Below, piece after piece: positions 50,765 through 58,605 of a stretch of 64,000 bases of DNA. How positions within the stretch are numbered: position 1 is the stretch's first letter; each line of letters begins with the position of its first letter. The notes beneath the pieces are model-generated. The model ran no database searches. It saw nothing but the letters and a program-made list of their open reading frames with translations, and was not told the origin of the DNA. Source of the stretch: Paucidesulfovibrio gracilis DSM 16080 (GTDB lineage: Bacteria > Desulfobacterota > Desulfovibrionia > Desulfovibrionales > Desulfovibrionaceae); NCBI RefSeq assembly GCF_900167125.1, contig NZ_FUYC01000002.1:310001-374000 (forward strand), read 5' to 3'. Both the position numbers and the translations under genes were made by a program.

Positions 50765-50777
50765 AAGGAGTGTGTCC

Positions 50778-51689
50778 ATGGCGGTTATTACCGTGCGGGA
50801 GCTTCGCGCCATTCTGGATCGTGGCGATCGTCCCCTGCTGGTGGATGTGTTGTTTGAGGAGCGATTTGCCAGGCAGCACGTCAGCGGAGCGGTATCGGCC
50901 TGCGTCTACAACGTGACGTTTTTGGACCAGATGGCGGAACTTGTGGAAGACCGGGATAAGCCGGTGGTTGTTTACGGCGTGGATGACGAGGATCATTCGG
51001 CCATGGTGGCGGAAGAAAAGCTTCTTCAGGCGGGATGGATTTCGGTCTTCCGGCTGGGCGGCGGTATCCGTGCCTGGATTCGGGAGGGAGGATCCGTGGA
51101 GGGGGAAGCCCCGGCCTCGGATCTGGACGAGGAGGCTGTTTTTCAAGCCCCGTCGGGCGTGGTTACGGTGCTTCCCGCGGAAAGTACCATTGGTTGGGAG
51201 GGGCGCAACACTTCCGGTTCGCATCGGGGCAGTCTGGACGTGGAGTCCGGTTCGTTTCGTTTTTCGTCGGACCAGGCATCGGGAGAAGTTGTTCTGGATA
51301 TGCGCAGCATCCGCAATCATGACGTGGAAGAGGAGTCGTTGCGCAGTGTGCTGGTGGCCCATTTGCTGTCCGAGGACTTTTTTCATACCGACGCGTTTCC
51401 CCGGGCGCGGCTGGCGATTGAAACCATGCGTCCACTGCACCGGGAACCGAGGCAGCCGAATCACGCGGTACAGGGAACATTGGAGCTGCGCGGCGTTCGC
51501 GCCCCGTTCGAGTGCGAGGCGACGCTGGAAAATCTGGAGGCGGGCCGCATGACGCTGGAAGCGCATTTTGATCTGGACCGCACGCTTTGGGGCGTCAACT
51601 ACGGGTCTGCCAAGCTCTTTCGTTATCTTGGCTATCATCTGGTGTTCGATCCGATCAGCGTGAACGTACGTCTGGTCTTGGAAGCCTGA
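50778..51689 (+). CDS. Rhodanese-like and YceI-like fusion protein
   Basis: The protein has 303 residues from the ATG at 50778, seven bases after AAGGAG; the GTG six bases earlier is too close to that site. Residues 1-105 resemble a rhodanese domain (VRELRAILDRGDRPLLVDVLFEERFARQH, then VFRLGGGIRAW). At the position of the catalytic cysteine there is Gly67 (VVYGVDDEDHSA), so sulfurtransferase activity is not expected. Residues 125-303 resemble YceI/lipocalin-like (SHRGSLDVESGSFRF, then LELRGVRAPFECEATLENL). No signal peptide is present, unusual for YceI. It stands alone; the role is unknown. Confidence 0.75.
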   Translation: MAVITVRELRAILDRGDRPLLVDVLFEERFARQHVSGAVSACVYNVTFLDQMAELVEDRDKPVVVYGVDDEDHSAMVAEEKLLQAGWISVFRLGGGIRAWIREGGSVEGEAPASDLDEEAVFQAPSGVVTVLPAESTIGWEGRNTSGSHRGSLDVESGSFRFSSDQASGEVVLDMRSIRNHDVEEESLRSVLVAHLLSEDFFHTDAFPRARLAIETMRPLHREPRQPNHAVQGTLELRGVRAPFECEATLENLEAGRMTLEAHFDLDRTLWGVNYGSAKLFRYLGYHLVFDPISVNVRLVLEA

Positions 51690-52665: not shown

Positions 52666-52794
52666 GCAAAGATCCTACCTGTAAATTGCGGCACTGCCCA
52701 CCCCCGGGCGCGGCGGGGCGGGCGTTCTCTCCGGCTTTGCATTATGTGAAGCCTTGGGTATGCTGGAGAAAAATTATCAGCGGAGGAAACGCTC

Positions 52795-53319
52795 ATGCGA
52801 CGGACGAATATTGATGCGGATCAGGTCAAGAAGGTTGAGGTGGAGGAACCGGATCAAACACGCGTGTATAACGGCGGTCCGGGGGAACCTGCGGTACGCT
52901 CCGCCGGAAAAAGCGTATTTTTCATCGGCCCGGAGGGATCGGGACGCCGGGAAGTGGGGCGCATTCTGGCTGCACGGCTCAAGCTGGGCTTTGTCGAAAT
53001 TGCGGATGCCGCCGCGCTCCAGTCCGCCTTGGATGGCGACCGGGTGGTGGCTTCCGTGGATAAAGAGCTGTTGCAGGATGAAGCATTGGCATCAACGCTG
53101 AACGCCGGTGGGGTGGTATTTTACACCATGGCCGGGGTGCAGGCGGTGGCCGAGGCCCGCGGTCTGGTGGTGGATGAGGAGTGCAAGCGCCGTATCTTTG
53201 CGGAAATAGATGAATGGGAACCGGTGTTCATGCGCATGCTGCACTTTTTGTTGCCCGGCGGCCTGAGCGCCGAGGCCACGGCTGCAAGCGCAGCAGACAA
53301 ATTGTATATGGTACGATAA
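52795..53319 (+). CDS. Shikimate-kinase-like protein with degenerate P-loop
   Basis: The protein has 174 residues and resembles the AroK fold (KSVFFIGPEGSGRREVGRILAARLKLGFVEI). The Walker A motif is degenerate: GPEGSGRRE at residues 45-53 has Arg51 in place of the catalytic Lys and Arg52 in place of Ser/Thr. The segment LNAGGVVFYTMAGVQAVAE resembles the mid-domain of shikimate kinases. ATP binding, and so kinase activity, is doubtful. It follows a GCGGAGG site and lies 52 bases before the HAD gene, in one + strand run. It may have a regulatory or a non-kinase role. Confidence 0.7.
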   Translation: MRRTNIDADQVKKVEVEEPDQTRVYNGGPGEPAVRSAGKSVFFIGPEGSGRREVGRILAARLKLGFVEIADAAALQSALDGDRVVASVDKELLQDEALASTLNAGGVVFYTMAGVQAVAEARGLVVDEECKRRIFAEIDEWEPVFMRMLHFLLPGGLSAEATAASAADKLYMVR

Positions 53320-53371
53320 CGGGAATCAATGGTCCGGAGCGAACAACGCCACCGGCAGGGATGGAGGAATC

Positions 53372-54589
53372 ATGGGCCAGGGCATGGAACCAACGCCGAT
53401 TGTGGACTTGAAAGGGTTTTACGAGCGCATGCACCAGACCCGGGAAGTGCGCGTCCGGGCCGTGGCGGATATTGCCGCAGGCCGGGTGCCGGATTCCGCG
53501 CTGGTACGGGTGTTGGAAACAACGCTTGAGGACTTGCGAAACATCTTGCGTCCTGACGGAAAGGCGGAATTGGAGGTCACGCCCGGCCGATCCATGGAGC
53601 TGGATCTCGGGTACGAGATTGGCGAACTGGAAAAGGACGTGCTTTATCTTCGACAGGGCGAGGACGCTCTGTTGACCTTTCTGGCGCAATTGCATCCCGA
53701 TTTTTCCCAGGAAGTCAGCACGGCACTGAATGTCTTGCAGGGGCGTTCCTTCAAAGCCTGGATTACGGACCGGGACGGCACCACCAACAACTATTGCGGG
53801 CGTTACAACTCGTCCATCCAATCCGCATACAATGCGGTCTTTCTTTCCCGCTATGCGCGGGTCCATGTGGGGCGCTCAGTGTTCATCACCTCTGCGCCCC
53901 TGCGCGACCCCGGCATCGTCAACGTCAGTGTGAATCCTGACGGGTCCTTCATCTATGCCGCGTCCAAGGGACGGGAGTGTCTGGACCTGGAAGGAGCGCG
54001 GCGGGTGTTTCCCATTGAGCCGGAAAAGCAGGCGCTGCTCGATGCCTTCAACGCGCGGATGGAGACCCTGCTTTGCGAGCCAGCGTATGGTACGTTTACG
54101 CTCATCGGTTCCGGGTATCAGCGGAAATTCGGGCAGACCACCATTGCCCGCCAGGACATCACCGGTACGATTCCCGAGGATGAGTCCAAGGCGTTTTTGG
54201 CCGTGATCGGCCAGGTGGTCGCGGAGGTGGACCCGGAAGGTCGTCATTTCTACATCGAGGACACAGGTCTGGATGTGGAGGTGATTCTTACGGTGGATGA
54301 CGAGCAGGGCGGCAAAGATTTTAGCAAGGCCGAGGGCGTGGCGTTTTTGGACCAGACCTTTGCCTTGGACCTGCAAAAGGGGCCGAATCTGGTCAGTGGG
54401 GACACCCGCTCGGATCTGCCGCTGGCCCAGGCCGTGTTGGAACGGTGTCCGGAGACCTGGGTGGTCTTTGTGACCCGGGATGAGGAACTGGCGGCCGATG
54501 TGCGGCGGCTCACGCCCTCTTCTCTCGTGGTGTCGCGGCCGGATGTGCTGGTGACGGCATTGGGCATGCTGGCCCGTTCCGACGTATAA
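53372..54589 (+). CDS. HAD phosphatase, trehalose-6-phosphate phosphatase-like
   Basis: The protein has 405 residues. After an N-terminal helical region (about 1-125) comes a complete HAD core. Motif I is D133-R-D135-G-T-T, motif II FITSAP (Thr173/Ser174), motif III has lysine near 252 (YQRKFGQTT), and motif IV is GDTRSD (343-348). The pattern fits a capped HAD phosphatase such as OtsB. The product sugar is uncertain. It is followed after 76 bases by the beta-phosphoglucomutase/GH65 fusion; the two plausibly handle one disaccharide pathway. Confidence 0.78.
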   Translation: MGQGMEPTPIVDLKGFYERMHQTREVRVRAVADIAAGRVPDSALVRVLETTLEDLRNILRPDGKAELEVTPGRSMELDLGYEIGELEKDVLYLRQGEDALLTFLAQLHPDFSQEVSTALNVLQGRSFKAWITDRDGTTNNYCGRYNSSIQSAYNAVFLSRYARVHVGRSVFITSAPLRDPGIVNVSVNPDGSFIYAASKGRECLDLEGARRVFPIEPEKQALLDAFNARMETLLCEPAYGTFTLIGSGYQRKFGQTTIARQDITGTIPEDESKAFLAVIGQVVAEVDPEGRHFYIEDTGLDVEVILTVDDEQGGKDFSKAEGVAFLDQTFALDLQKGPNLVSGDTRSDLPLAQAVLERCPETWVVFVTRDEELAADVRRLTPSSLVVSRPDVLVTALGMLARSDV

Positions 54590-54665
54590 GGCGTCGCAGG
54601 GATATCTTCGAACCGGGATGTGACGCGGCTTATTGCCGCACAAGAAGGTTTTGCAAGGAGCGAAT

Positions 54666-57600
54666 ATGTCGACCAGCGGACCGCAAGGTGTGATTTTCGA
54701 TCTGGATGGCGTGATTACCGGAACGGCCAGGGTTCATTCCATGGCCTGGGAAAGCATGTTCAACCGATATCTGCAACAGGTGGCCGAGCGGGACGGCAAA
54801 CCCTTCCAGCCCTTCACCGCGGAGGACTATCTTGCGTATGTAGACGGGAAGCCGCGCATGCAGGGGGTTCGGAGCTTTTTGGAGTCGCGGGGCATTGACC
54901 TGCCTTTCGGCGACCATGACGACAGCCCGGACGTGGAAACCGTTTGCGGCCTGGGCAATCGCAAGAATCTTGATTTTCAGAAGGTGCTCAAGGAGGAGGG
55001 ACCGGACGTGTTTGCCTCCTCGGTGGAACTTGTGCGCGAATTGAAGCGGCGCGGCATCCGCGTGGGCGTGGCCTCGTCCAGCCGCAACTGCCGGTTGATT
55101 CTGGAATTGGCGGGATTGGATGATCTTTTCGAGACCCGGGTGGATGGAGACGTTTCCCTGGAATTGGGGCTGAAGGGCAAGCCGGATCCGGACATTTTTA
55201 CCACTGCGGCGGCCAACCTCGACCTACGGCCCGGGCAGTGCGTGGTGGTGGAGGATGCTATCTCCGGCGTGCAGGCCGGATGCGCGGGAAATTTTGGCCT
55301 GACATTGGGGGTGGCCCGAGAGACGCCCGGGGATGTGCTTTTGGCCAATGGCGCGGATTTGGCCGTGCGTGATCTGGGTGAAATCAGTGTGGACGATCTG
55401 GAGGACTGGTTCCGCAACGGCCTGGAACGGGATGGCTGGACCTTTGCCTACCAGGGGCTGGATCCGGAAAACGAGAAGTTGCGAGAAGCCCTGACCACGG
55501 TGGGCAACGGATACCTCGGTGTCCGGGGGGCGTTGGAAACGGAGCGTGCTTCCGAGCACCACTACCCGGGGACATATCTGGCTGGTGTGTTCAACAAAAT
55601 TCCCACTCCGCTGCATGGACGTGATATTTATAATAATGATTTTGTGAACTGCCCCAACTGGCTGCTCATGGAATTTCGGGTGGACCAGGGCGAATATATC
55701 AGCCCCATGGACATGGAGGTGCTTTCCTATTCCCATGCGCTGCACCTGCGTGAAGCCGTGCTTGAACGGCGTATGGTGGTCAAGGACAATCTTGGCCGCA
55801 TAACGCGGTTGGTGTCGCGGCGGTTGGCCAGCATGGCGGATCCGCATCTGTTGGCCCAGCGGTTGGAATTGACCCCGGTGAACTGGTCCGGCCGGGTGAC
55901 GGTGCGTTCGGGTATTGACGGCAACATCATCAATGACGGCGTGGCCCGGTACCGTCAACTCAACCAGCAGCACCTTGAGTTTGTGAAAAGCGGGAAGGCC
56001 GCGGGCGGCGTGTTTTTGGAAACGCGCACCACGGCTTCGGGCTATCACGTGGCCATGAGCGCCAAACACGTTCTGTTTGACGAGGGGCGGCGTATTCACG
56101 GCACGCGGGAAGTCTGCCCCGACCGTGCATTCATTGGTGAGGAGTTGTCCTTCCCGGCTGGAGAAGGCCGCTGTTACGCCGTGGACAAGCTGGTCAGCGT
56201 GTATACCTCGCTGGATGCGGAGGAACCGCGCCGGGCGTCCGTGGCCCGACTGGATCGGGCGCGTAGTTTCCGGCAGCTTCATGCCGGACACGCCAAAGCC
56301 TGGGAACGCCTGTGGGACAAGGCGGACATCAAGGTGGGCGGCGATCGGCTGGTGCAGCGCACCTTGCGGCTGCACGCCTATCACCTTTTGGTGACGGCCT
56401 CGCCGCATAACCGGAATTTGGATGCGGGCATGCCTGCGCGCGGACTTTCGGGCGAGGCCTACCGTGGTCATATTTTTTGGGATGAACTGTACATCCTGCC
56501 CTTCTATGATCTGCGTTTCCCGGAAATATCCAAGGCGCTGCTTTCCTATCGCTACAACCGGTTGGAGGGGGCGCGGCAGTATGCCCGCGAGCACGGATAC
56601 GAAGGCGCTATGTTTCCCTGGCAGACCGCGGACGGTGGGGAGGAGGAGACCCAGGAGGTTCATTTCAACCCCAAAAGCGGGGATTGGGGACCGGACCTGT
56701 CGCGTCGCCAGCGTCATGTTTCCATCGCCGTATTCTTCAATACCTGGCGGTATGTGCACTGCACCGGAGACTGGAACTTCATGCGCCGTCAGGGGGCCGA
56801 GTTGATGCTCTCCATCGCCCGGTTTTGGGGGTCCATTGCCCAAAAGGACGAAGCCACGGGACAATGGCACATTGACGGCGTCATGGGACCGGATGAATTT
56901 CATGAATCCCTGCCTGGTTCCAATCGGGAGGGGCTGCGAGACAACGCCTACACCAATGTGATGAGTTCCTGGTTGTTGGAACGGGCTGTGGATCTTCTGG
57001 AGCGGCTTTCTCCGGCGGACCGCAAGCGGGTGGCGAAGCGGTCGGGTCTGCGTGACGAAGAACCCGAGCGCTGGCAGGAAATCGCCCGAGGACTGCACGT
57101 CAGCCTGAACGAGCAGGGCGTTATAGAACAGTTTGCCGGGTATTTCGGATTGGATGAGCTGGATTGGGACGCCTATCGCGCCAAATACGGGGACATCCAC
57201 CGTCTGGACCGCATTCTCAAGGCCGAGGGGGATTCGCCGGACCATTATAAGCTGGCCAAACAGGCGGATACGTTGATGATGTTTTATGCTCTCCCCCCCG
57301 AAACCATTGTGGACATTCTTGGCCGACTCGGGCATGACGTGGGCGACCCGGCCACATTGTTGCGCCGGAACTATGACTATTACGAGGGGCGCACCAGCCA
57401 CGGGTCTACGCTCTCCAAGGTGGTTCATGCGCTTATCTCCAGTTATTTCGGGGATGACGCCACTGCCTGGCAATGGTTCCTTGAGGCTCTGGTCAGCGAC
57501 ATCCACGATAGTCAGGGCGGCACCACGCTGGAAGGGATTCATACCGGCGTCATGGCCGGAACCCTGGACATCGTAACCCGCTATTTTGCCGGGGTGGACG

Positions 57601-57824
57601 TCACAGGGGAGCGTCTTACGATCCAGCCGCATCTTCCCGCGCATTGGTCCGAATTGGAGCTGAAACTCCGTTTTCGGGGTGATTGGTACGGCCTGCGGCT
57701 GAAGCCGGGCAAGTTGCGCGTCACCCTGTTGGAGTCGTCCAAGGACGCGGTACACCTTGTGGTGCAAGGGCGGTCCGTGGAGTTGACCCCGGGCCGGGCG
57801 CGTACCGTGACGCTGGACAGGTAG
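54666..57824 (+). CDS. Beta-phosphoglucomutase / GH65 glycoside phosphorylase fusion
   Basis: The protein has 1052 residues from the ATG at 54666, after AAGGAG; an upstream in-frame ATG at 54633 adds unrelated residues. Residues 1-235 are a HAD beta-phosphoglucomutase (GVIFDLDGVITGT, nucleophile Asp12 and Asp14). Residues 250-1040 are a GH65 (alpha/alpha)6-barrel enzyme, with FNPKSGDWGPDLSRRQRH and the acid motif GPDEFHES (Glu744) in place. The loop QGGTTLEGIHTGVMAG suits a phosphate-binding phosphorylase rather than a hydrolase. Such a fusion could split an alpha-glucoside with phosphate and turn beta-glucose-1-phosphate into glucose-6-phosphate. Substrate (trehalose, kojibiose, maltose or a phosphorylated form) is not determined. 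Confidence 0.88.
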   Translation: MSTSGPQGVIFDLDGVITGTARVHSMAWESMFNRYLQQVAERDGKPFQPFTAEDYLAYVDGKPRMQGVRSFLESRGIDLPFGDHDDSPDVETVCGLGNRKNLDFQKVLKEEGPDVFASSVELVRELKRRGIRVGVASSSRNCRLILELAGLDDLFETRVDGDVSLELGLKGKPDPDIFTTAAANLDLRPGQCVVVEDAISGVQAGCAGNFGLTLGVARETPGDVLLANGADLAVRDLGEISVDDLEDWFRNGLERDGWTFAYQGLDPENEKLREALTTVGNGYLGVRGALETERASEHHYPGTYLAGVFNKIPTPLHGRDIYNNDFVNCPNWLLMEFRVDQGEYISPMDMEVLSYSHALHLREAVLERRMVVKDNLGRITRLVSRRLASMADPHLLAQRLELTPVNWSGRVTVRSGIDGNIINDGVARYRQLNQQHLEFVKSGKAAGGVFLETRTTASGYHVAMSAKHVLFDEGRRIHGTREVCPDRAFIGEELSFPAGEGRCYAVDKLVSVYTSLDAEEPRRASVARLDRARSFRQLHAGHAKAWERLWDKADIKVGGDRLVQRTLRLHAYHLLVTASPHNRNLDAGMPARGLSGEAYRGHIFWDELYILPFYDLRFPEISKALLSYRYNRLEGARQYAREHGYEGAMFPWQTADGGEEETQEVHFNPKSGDWGPDLSRRQRHVSIAVFFNTWRYVHCTGDWNFMRRQGAELMLSIARFWGSIAQKDEATGQWHIDGVMGPDEFHESLPGSNREGLRDNAYTNVMSSWLLERAVDLLERLSPADRKRVAKRSGLRDEEPERWQEIARGLHVSLNEQGVIEQFAGYFGLDELDWDAYRAKYGDIHRLDRILKAEGDSPDHYKLAKQADTLMMFYALPPETIVDILGRLGHDVGDPATLLRRNYDYYEGRTSHGSTLSKVVHALISSYFGDDATAWQWFLEALVSDIHDSQGGTTLEGIHTGVMAGTLDIVTRYFAGVDVTGERLTIQPHLPAHWSELELKLRFRGDWYGLRLKPGKLRVTLLESSKDAVHLVVQGRSVELTPGRARTVTLDR

Positions 57825-57870: not shown

Positions 57871-58605
57871 ATGGCCGAAAAAAAATTGCGTGTCGAGCTG
57901 TTGAGCATGACGCCCAACGCGCTTGAATTGTTGTATGCCGCCTTTCGGCAATGCTATCATGCCGGGTTTGTGGCCGACATGTGGCCCCGCCTGCTGAACG
58001 GGGAGATCCCCCCGGAAAAGCAGGCGGGACTGGTCAGCCGCGTTTTGGAATCCGGCCACGACAGCCCTGTGGAGCATGTGAGCTTTAGCTTTGCGGTGGA
58101 AGGCATTTCCCGAGCCTGCTCGCACCAGCTGGTGCGCCACAGGCTGGCTTCCTACTCGCAGCAAAGTCAGCGGTATGTCACGGAGTCGGACATGGAGTAC
58201 ATCCTGCCTCCGGCCATTGCCCGAATTCCGGAGGCGCGTGAACGGTTTGAGGCCTTTATGCAGGAGGTGGGGAGCGCGTATGCGGATCTGCGTGACATCC
58301 TGGTGGCGCACGGGCGTGCATCCAAGGCCAATGAGGATGCCCGGTTTGTCCTGCCGCAGGCAGCGGAAACCAAAATCGTGCTGACGATGAACTGCCGGGC
58401 CTTGCGGCATTTTTTCCATTTGCGCTGCTGTGCTCGGGCGCAGTGGGAGATTCGAGCCTTGGCCGATGCCATGCTCGTCATTTGTCGAGAGAAGTTGCCC
58501 GCGATTTTTGCCACGGCTGGAGCCAGGTGCGTGGAGTTGGGCTACTGCCCGGAATCGGAGCGGTTTACCTGCGGAAAATACCCACTGCGTAAGGATATGG
58601 CGTAA
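57871..58605 (+). CDS. thyX: Flavin-dependent thymidylate synthase
   Basis: ThyX makes dTMP from dUMP with methylenetetrahydrofolate, FAD and NADPH. It has 244 residues. The diagnostic motif RHRLASYSQQSQRY covers residues 89-102 (RHR-x2-S-x4-S-x-RY), where dUMP and FAD bind. The start follows a CGGAG site. It ends the + strand run after the GH65 fusion, 46 bases away, and precedes the AT-rich region ahead of dnaA. Confidence 0.97.
   Translation: MAEKKLRVELLSMTPNALELLYAAFRQCYHAGFVADMWPRLLNGEIPPEKQAGLVSRVLESGHDSPVEHVSFSFAVEGISRACSHQLVRHRLASYSQQSQRYVTESDMEYILPPAIARIPEARERFEAFMQEVGSAYADLRDILVAHGRASKANEDARFVLPQAAETKIVLTMNCRALRHFFHLRCCARAQWEIRALADAMLVICREKLPAIFATAGARCVELGYCPESERFTCGKYPLRKDMA

Follow-up and report, generated by a model that had tools for sequence, protein, structure and literature searches.

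The DNA analysed here (the window) is a 64,000-nucleotide stretch of the genome of Paucidesulfovibrio gracilis DSM 16080 (contig NZ_FUYC01000002.1, positions 310,001 to 374,000). Three head-to-tail genes on its plus strand span positions 52795-57824, each preceded by its own ribosome-binding site (RBS). The second and third, encoding a predicted trehalose-6-phosphate (T6P) phosphatase (T6PP) and a fusion of beta-phosphoglucomutase (beta-PGM) with a glycoside hydrolase family 65 (GH65) domain, form a conserved pair that probably makes trehalose and is the subject of this analysis. The features of the run are as follows (lengths of proteins in amino acids, aa).

52782-52786, plus strand: RBS GGAGG of the leader gene, before ATG 52795
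52795..53319, plus strand: leader, the first gene of the run, encoding a degenerate P-loop protein of 174 aa that resembles shikimate kinases (sub-threshold kinase match)
53363..53367, plus strand: RBS GGAGG of the phosphatase gene, before ATG 53372, read directly from the sequence
53372..54589, plus strand: predicted nematode-type T6P phosphatase, T6PP_N and T6PP_C, 405 aa (Pfam; residue comparison with Brugia T6PP, PMC4081830)
54655..54660, plus strand: RBS AAGGAG of the fusion gene, whose ATG 54666 lies 5 nt further on
54666..57824, plus strand: fusion of beta-PGM and predicted GH65 T6P phosphorylase, 1052 aa (Pfam, TIGRFAM, motif, structure comparison)
54666..55415, plus strand: beta-PGM domain, residues 1-250 (TIGR02009 above cut-off; VIA Z 24-27 to beta-PGM structures)
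55422..57821, plus strand: GH65 phosphorylase domain, residues 253-1052 (specificity motif, phosphate site; VIA match to 9lb6)
57871..58605, plus strand: thyX, flavin-dependent thymidylate synthase, 46 nt downstream of the fusion

The fusion is taken to start at ATG 54666 rather than at TTG 54633, the start given by the open reading frame finder, because only ATG 54666 has a comparable RBS.

Active sites of the phosphatase and the fusion protein

The 405-aa protein matches T6PP_C (PF21141, 8.1e-81) and T6PP_N (PF18572, 4.5e-11) above the cut-off and by Pfam is of the nematode GOB-1 type, not PF02358 OtsB. These matches and the HAD aspartate pair bear out the preliminary description of the locus, made from its letters alone, which had proposed a separate trehalose-phosphatase-like HAD protein. 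The catalytic residues are intact (nucleophile and acid D133/D135, Y141, Q250, K252, D344, D348); all five bacterial phosphatase sequences compared retain the catalytic Asp pair and the residues equivalent to Brugia Y221, Q332 and K334. With the nematode enzymes (GOB-1; Brugia malayi 4ofz), which work with trehalose-6-phosphate synthase (TPS) in animals, the window protein shares the HAD family, the catalytic residues and an N-terminal helical domain (T6PP_N) that has been called unique to nematodes and mycobacteria (PMC4081830).

The N-terminal part of the fusion has a HAD match in Pfam (1.5e-21) and exceeds the cut-off of the beta-PGM subfamily TIGR02009 (165.4 bits, cut-off 153.35); the bPGM equivalog TIGR01990 scores under its own cut-off. 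Catalytic residues D12/D14, R64, K100, S139, N141, K172 and E196/D197 are intact, and the predicted domain matches beta-PGM structures. The remainder of the protein matches the GH65 models Glyco_hydro_65m (6.9e-121), 65N (2e-67) and 65C (2.4e-11), so that the fusion of beta-phosphoglucomutase and GH65 proposed beforehand is confirmed. Its closest solved GH65 relative by sequence is 9lb6 (1.1e-155), presumably the T6P phosphorylase described in Feng et al. 2025 (cited in PMC13121652), with kojibiose phosphorylase 3wiq at 1.1e-112 and maltose phosphorylase 1h54 at 9.5e-58. The predicted structure also ranks 9lb6 first (VIA Z 42.1, rmsd 3.2, 752 aligned), by a small margin over kojibiose phosphorylase (40.7). 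The names in PDB entry 9lb6, from Weissella ceti, conflict: the molecule is called 'Trehalose-6-phosphate hydrolase' and the title reads 'trehalose 6-phosphate phosphatase', yet the protein is a GH65 enzyme of phosphorylase type with the motif DQGQDE.

Phosphorylases of GH65 carry a phosphate-binding Lys, His and Ser pair and lack the general-base Glu of hydrolases (PMC8626586). In the window protein the phosphate site (K865, S914-T915, H959; Ser-Thr as in 9lb6) and the catalytic acid E744 are all intact, and the general-base position, read by eye from the alignment, is a Gln within the DSQGGTTLEGIH segment. The initial call of a phosphorylase-type GH65, which was to fall if phosphate-binding residues were lacking, therefore stands. 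Across the alignment of 77 GH65 sequences, three of them references, 68 combine a K-S-T-H phosphate site with the catalytic Glu; in sequences of the kojibiose and glucosylglycerol types the site is K-S-S-H.

Specificity was read from the six positions of De Beul et al. (PMC8537180; CsKP 64, 392, 394, 402, 416 and 585), where T6P phosphorylase has DQGQDE and kojibiose phosphorylase EEAPxx. The window protein reads DQAQDE (D325, Q653, A655, Q663, D677, E854), identical to T6P phosphorylase at five of six positions, and DQ[A/G]QDE is found in 61 of the 77 aligned sequences. Caldithrix abyssi CaGP (GH65 subgroup 22), known from a specificity assay, falls with the window protein under the common form DQ[G/A]QDE. 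Five basic residues (R428, H666, R683, R846, R849) are shared with 9lb6 and kept by 68-70 of the 70 members of the clade; kojibiose- and glucosylglycerol-type GH65 have other residues there. The five could be the residues that bind the 6-phosphate. On motif and T6P-type basic residues a TreP, KojP or MalP identity was rejected. The comparison with these three enzymes had been proposed at the outset; the idea of a trehalose-type sugar is supported, and the signature read is the more specific one of T6P phosphorylase.

Plasmid-borne fusions of beta-PGM and GH65 in Rhodococcus, Corynebacterium and Nitrobacter lack three of the five basic residues, and possibly have a different acceptor and a catabolic role. 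Those of Rhodococcus (L132) and Corynebacterium (L133) adjoin phosphoketolase and that of Nitrobacter (L130) adjoins glucokinase, in metal-resistance or central-carbon islands.

Conservation of the gene pair and its genomic context

Scanning genomes with the phosphatase yielded 80 loci, and in 67 of them the next gene encodes beta-PGM or the beta-PGM-GH65 fusion; among the other 13, four stop at a contig edge and one (L043) retains a broken remnant. The pair is spread over Desulfobacterota, Chlorobiota, Acidobacteria and others. Pairwise distances of phosphatase and fusion correlate with r = 0.93 across 33 loci outside Chlorobi (reached by none of 999 permutations), a value to which shared ancestry contributes.

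Many of the compared genomes are incomplete assemblies from metagenomes; that of P. gracilis is 99.85% complete. A search for PF02358 phosphatases found none in P. gracilis or in 49 further genomes of the 53 searched, and T6PP is the sole recognised T6P phosphatase in these 50. OtsA (GT20, PF00982) was found neither in P. gracilis nor in 34 of 52 other T6PP genomes, GT4-type T6P synthases and TreT not having been searched. Among 98 Chlorobia genomes T6PP occurs in 82, all of them with GH65, and OtsA exceeds the cut-off in none. These genomes are related, and the Fisher value calculated makes them look more independent than they are. Two T6PP genomes without any GH65 (G391, G213) do have OtsA. 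In five OtsA-less genomes where no fusion adjoins T6PP, an unfused GH65 lies elsewhere and is of T6P type wherever its motif is readable. Full TreS, full TreY and classical OtsB were not found in the P. gracilis genome; most Desulfobacterota have no full TreS or TreY, and TreY exceeds the cut-off in only 2 of 35 genomes. Import of T6P by a glucose-type phosphotransferase system (PTS) was rejected, as no such system was found in P. gracilis and no EIIC of this kind (PF02378) in 35 OtsA-less genomes, other importers not having been tested. Most Chlorobia (e.g. G427:C12:176000-177118) also hold a second, unfused GH65 of about 800 aa and a TreS-containing protein of about 1110-1130 aa, the size of a TreS-maltokinase fusion.

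Plasmids of Indioceanicola and Croceicoccus carry a gene for a beta-PGM-OtsB (PF02358) fusion that overlaps a second gene, for a GH65 bearing the complete T6P signature. A 547-aa PF02358 frame directly precedes a T6P-type GH65 in the Omnitrophota genome G440, apparently in this same alphaproteobacterial layout. Two unrelated T6P phosphatases, PF21141 and the OtsB type, have therefore become partners of one and the same mutase-phosphorylase module. The idea of a three-domain protein on plasmids of actinobacteria was also considered and rejected, as no OtsB domain was seen in the loci of Streptomyces and Nonomuraea. The locus had been labelled a split form of mycobacterial OtsB1 (Rv2006), one protein of 1327 aa (PMC11046441). 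Going by its size, that protein would join the same three activities. The label is loose, as the phosphatase here is PF21141 in a genome in which no PF02358 was found and the three domains are not in one chain. The alphaproteobacterial pair of beta-PGM-OtsB and GH65 is closer to a split OtsB1 than the window pair.

Co-conservation of all three genes, as first envisaged, holds for the phosphatase and the fusion and not for the leader, whose homologue (77%) occurs within the 80-locus comparison only in the closest relative, L011. The leader is a degenerate kinase-like protein, as described beforehand: its shikimate-kinase match is below threshold and covers residues 39-71 only, and its Walker A reads GPEGSGRRE, with Lys replaced by Arg. 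As a pathway enzyme it was rejected, on its restriction to the window and this sister locus, a low-confidence structure model (pLDDT 49) and its dissimilarity to the PRK-like kinase downstream of other loci, and it is probably not part of the conserved system, contrary to the preliminary description. The downstream kinase, a small phosphoribulokinase/uridine-kinase-like P-loop protein (PF00485), follows the fusion at L013:6038-6700 and in nine other Desulfobacterota loci, where it might act as a sugar kinase that supplies the route.

Other layouts were seen as well. In Candidatus Desulfaltia bathyphila (L007:7447-7934, L043:9391-9878) an intact T6PP gene is followed by about 46 N-terminal beta-PGM residues joined out of frame to about 116 GH65 residues, either a decayed gene or an assembly error. 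In Pseudodesulfovibrio-like loci (L083:6564-7973, L038, L044, L045, L049) a DUF4139/DUF4140 protein is encoded directly before T6PP, and at L036:9206-13347 a stand-alone beta-PGM gene lies between T6PP and a complete fusion. The thyX gene was not seen adjoining the pair in other loci of the phosphatase scan and is probably an unrelated passenger. Upstream of the run lies a divergent gene for a zinc-dependent phospholipase C-like protein, and window positions 50772-51689 encode one 305-aa protein in which a rhodanese domain is fused to a YceI-like domain.

A possible route to trehalose without nucleotide sugars

Judged from sequence, the pair at 53372-57824 would make trehalose without any nucleotide sugar, its GH65 domain running in the synthetic direction, a reading to which we assign a probability of about 0.64. 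The beta-PGM domain would interconvert glucose-6-phosphate (G6P) and beta-glucose-1-phosphate; the fused GH65 domain, acting as a T6P phosphorylase in the synthetic direction, would combine beta-glucose-1-phosphate with a second G6P to give T6P and phosphate; and the separate phosphatase would hydrolyse T6P irreversibly to trehalose, pulling the chain forward. The net reaction would be 2 G6P and water to trehalose and 2 phosphate. A route between a trehalose-type sugar and G6P that may make a compatible solute had been suggested beforehand, and the combination of T6PP, beta-PGM and T6P-type GH65 supports it; the trehalose may serve as a compatible solute or as a carbon reserve. Green sulfur bacteria accumulate trehalose, according to the passage of PMC7824335 that cites Welsh and Herbert 1993, and halophilic sulfate reducers are likewise reported to do so. 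The documented cases are some green sulfur bacteria and Desulfovibrio halophilus (PMC7824335, PMC3035252) and do not include the organism of the window.

The Caldithrix enzyme (DQGQDE) was assayed in the synthetic direction, forming T6P from beta-glucose-1-phosphate and G6P (PMC8537180), and a T6P phosphorylase gave a molar yield of T6P of up to 93% in an in vitro maltose cascade (PMC13121652). In Chlorobia, phosphatase and phosphorylase would both be T6P consumers with no recognised T6P source, so the synthetic direction is the best reading there. Likewise, since the phosphatase step is effectively irreversible, the phosphorylase must run synthetically if there is no other T6P source. By estimate, the equilibrium from G6P via beta-PGM is probably less favourable than that of the maltose cascade.

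Several points weigh against a synthetic role for the pair. A 2025 review lists T6P phosphorylase as a degradation route only (PMC12125463), and the characterised Lactococcus lactis enzyme is described as catabolic where PMC8537180 and PMC12125463 cite Andersson 2001. At least 13 genomes with T6PP and the fusion also have OtsA, including Desulfovibrionaceae and some others, and the OtsA locus of G409/G410 itself includes a T6PP gene; where OtsA and the pair share a genome, T6P breakdown or flexible control by the pair is therefore possible. A non-GT20 T6P synthase has been reported for Sulfolobus (PMC7688234). All this could reflect T6P turnover, in which an unrecognised enzyme (e.g. a GT4-type synthase) would make T6P, the phosphatase would turn part of it into trehalose and the fusion would return the remainder to two G6P, as happens in Lactococcus. 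Such turnover is unlikely, if the most serious competitor, given the OtsA-less genomes described above (P. gracilis, the 34 of 52 others, the 98 Chlorobia), the absence of a PTS importer of this family from 35 genomes and the lack of a recurrent glycosyltransferase among annotated neighbouring genes; it also leaves unexplained why OtsA-less genomes keep two T6P consumers. Chlorobia carry full-length TreS as another possible trehalose source, and therefore the pair need not be the sole one there.

Further doubts concern the substrate. The active-site loops are modelled with low confidence (pLDDT under 50), position 394 (CsKP numbering) is Ala in place of the Gly of characterised T6P phosphorylase, and the Brugia cap residues D336 and R337, important for turnover (PMC4081830), are Gly and Gln here and invariantly so in the bacterial clade. 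Both replacements would suit a GH65 that uses another phosphorylated acceptor and a phosphatase that frees another non-reducing glucoside. This is rather improbable, as the GH65 domain agrees with 9lb6 at five of the six specificity positions and in every one of the five basic residues, Gly and Ala forms at 394 both occur across T6PP genomes (Ala in most of the clade), and T6PP keeps its catalytic residues and the equivalents of Y221, Q332 and K334. It is very improbable that the GH65 domain acts on unphosphorylated trehalose, kojibiose or maltose, as phosphorylase or hydrolase, and is paired with a T6P phosphatase by chance: such enzymes belong to the same family, and other GH65 enzymes in some T6PP genomes carry the kojibiose motif EEAP, but motif, phosphate site and basic residues of the window protein are unlike those classes, and partnership with a T6P phosphatase is found again with a second, unrelated phosphatase family.

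The preferred reading, synthesis by the pair, also differs from known systems. The T6P phosphorylase and beta-PGM of L. lactis (EC 2.4.1.216) resemble the fusion in GH65 specificity class, mutase partner and chemistry, in reverse. They are catabolic after T6P uptake, with a separate mutase and no T6P phosphatase partner, whereas here the mutase is fused, a T6P phosphatase is paired, no sugar PTS EIIC was found (PF02378, above) and the direction is probably synthetic. Like the OtsA-OtsB pathway, the proposed route has T6P as intermediate and ends in trehalose through a T6P phosphatase. That pathway uses GT20 with UDP- or ADP-glucose and PF02358; neither family was found in the P. gracilis genome, which has PF21141 instead, and T6P would come from the GH65 phosphorylase and beta-glucose-1-phosphate, unlike with OtsA. 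In genome work on sulfate reducers otsB was 'difficult to detect', and a phosphatase-hydrolase fusion of >1095 aa was labelled OtsAB/TreH (PMC6491731), very likely a fusion protein of the window type.

Every enzyme class involved is known; the combination and its direction would be new, and a search of open-access papers found no report of a phosphorylase-driven trehalose synthesis pathway. More tentative, at slightly less than even chances, is the wider proposal that green sulfur bacteria, many sulfate reducers and others share a nucleotide-sugar-free trehalose route, assembled more than once with unrelated phosphatases and forming the main source where OtsA is lacking, with OtsB1 as its fully fused form. 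The function of OtsB1 (Rv2006) is reported as unknown, and the pair would suggest a testable idea for it. If true, synthesis by the pair would explain how trehalose-accumulating bacteria without OtsA might make trehalose, and would add to the known trehalose pathways a phosphorylase-driven route that saves the UTP spent by OtsA chemistry.

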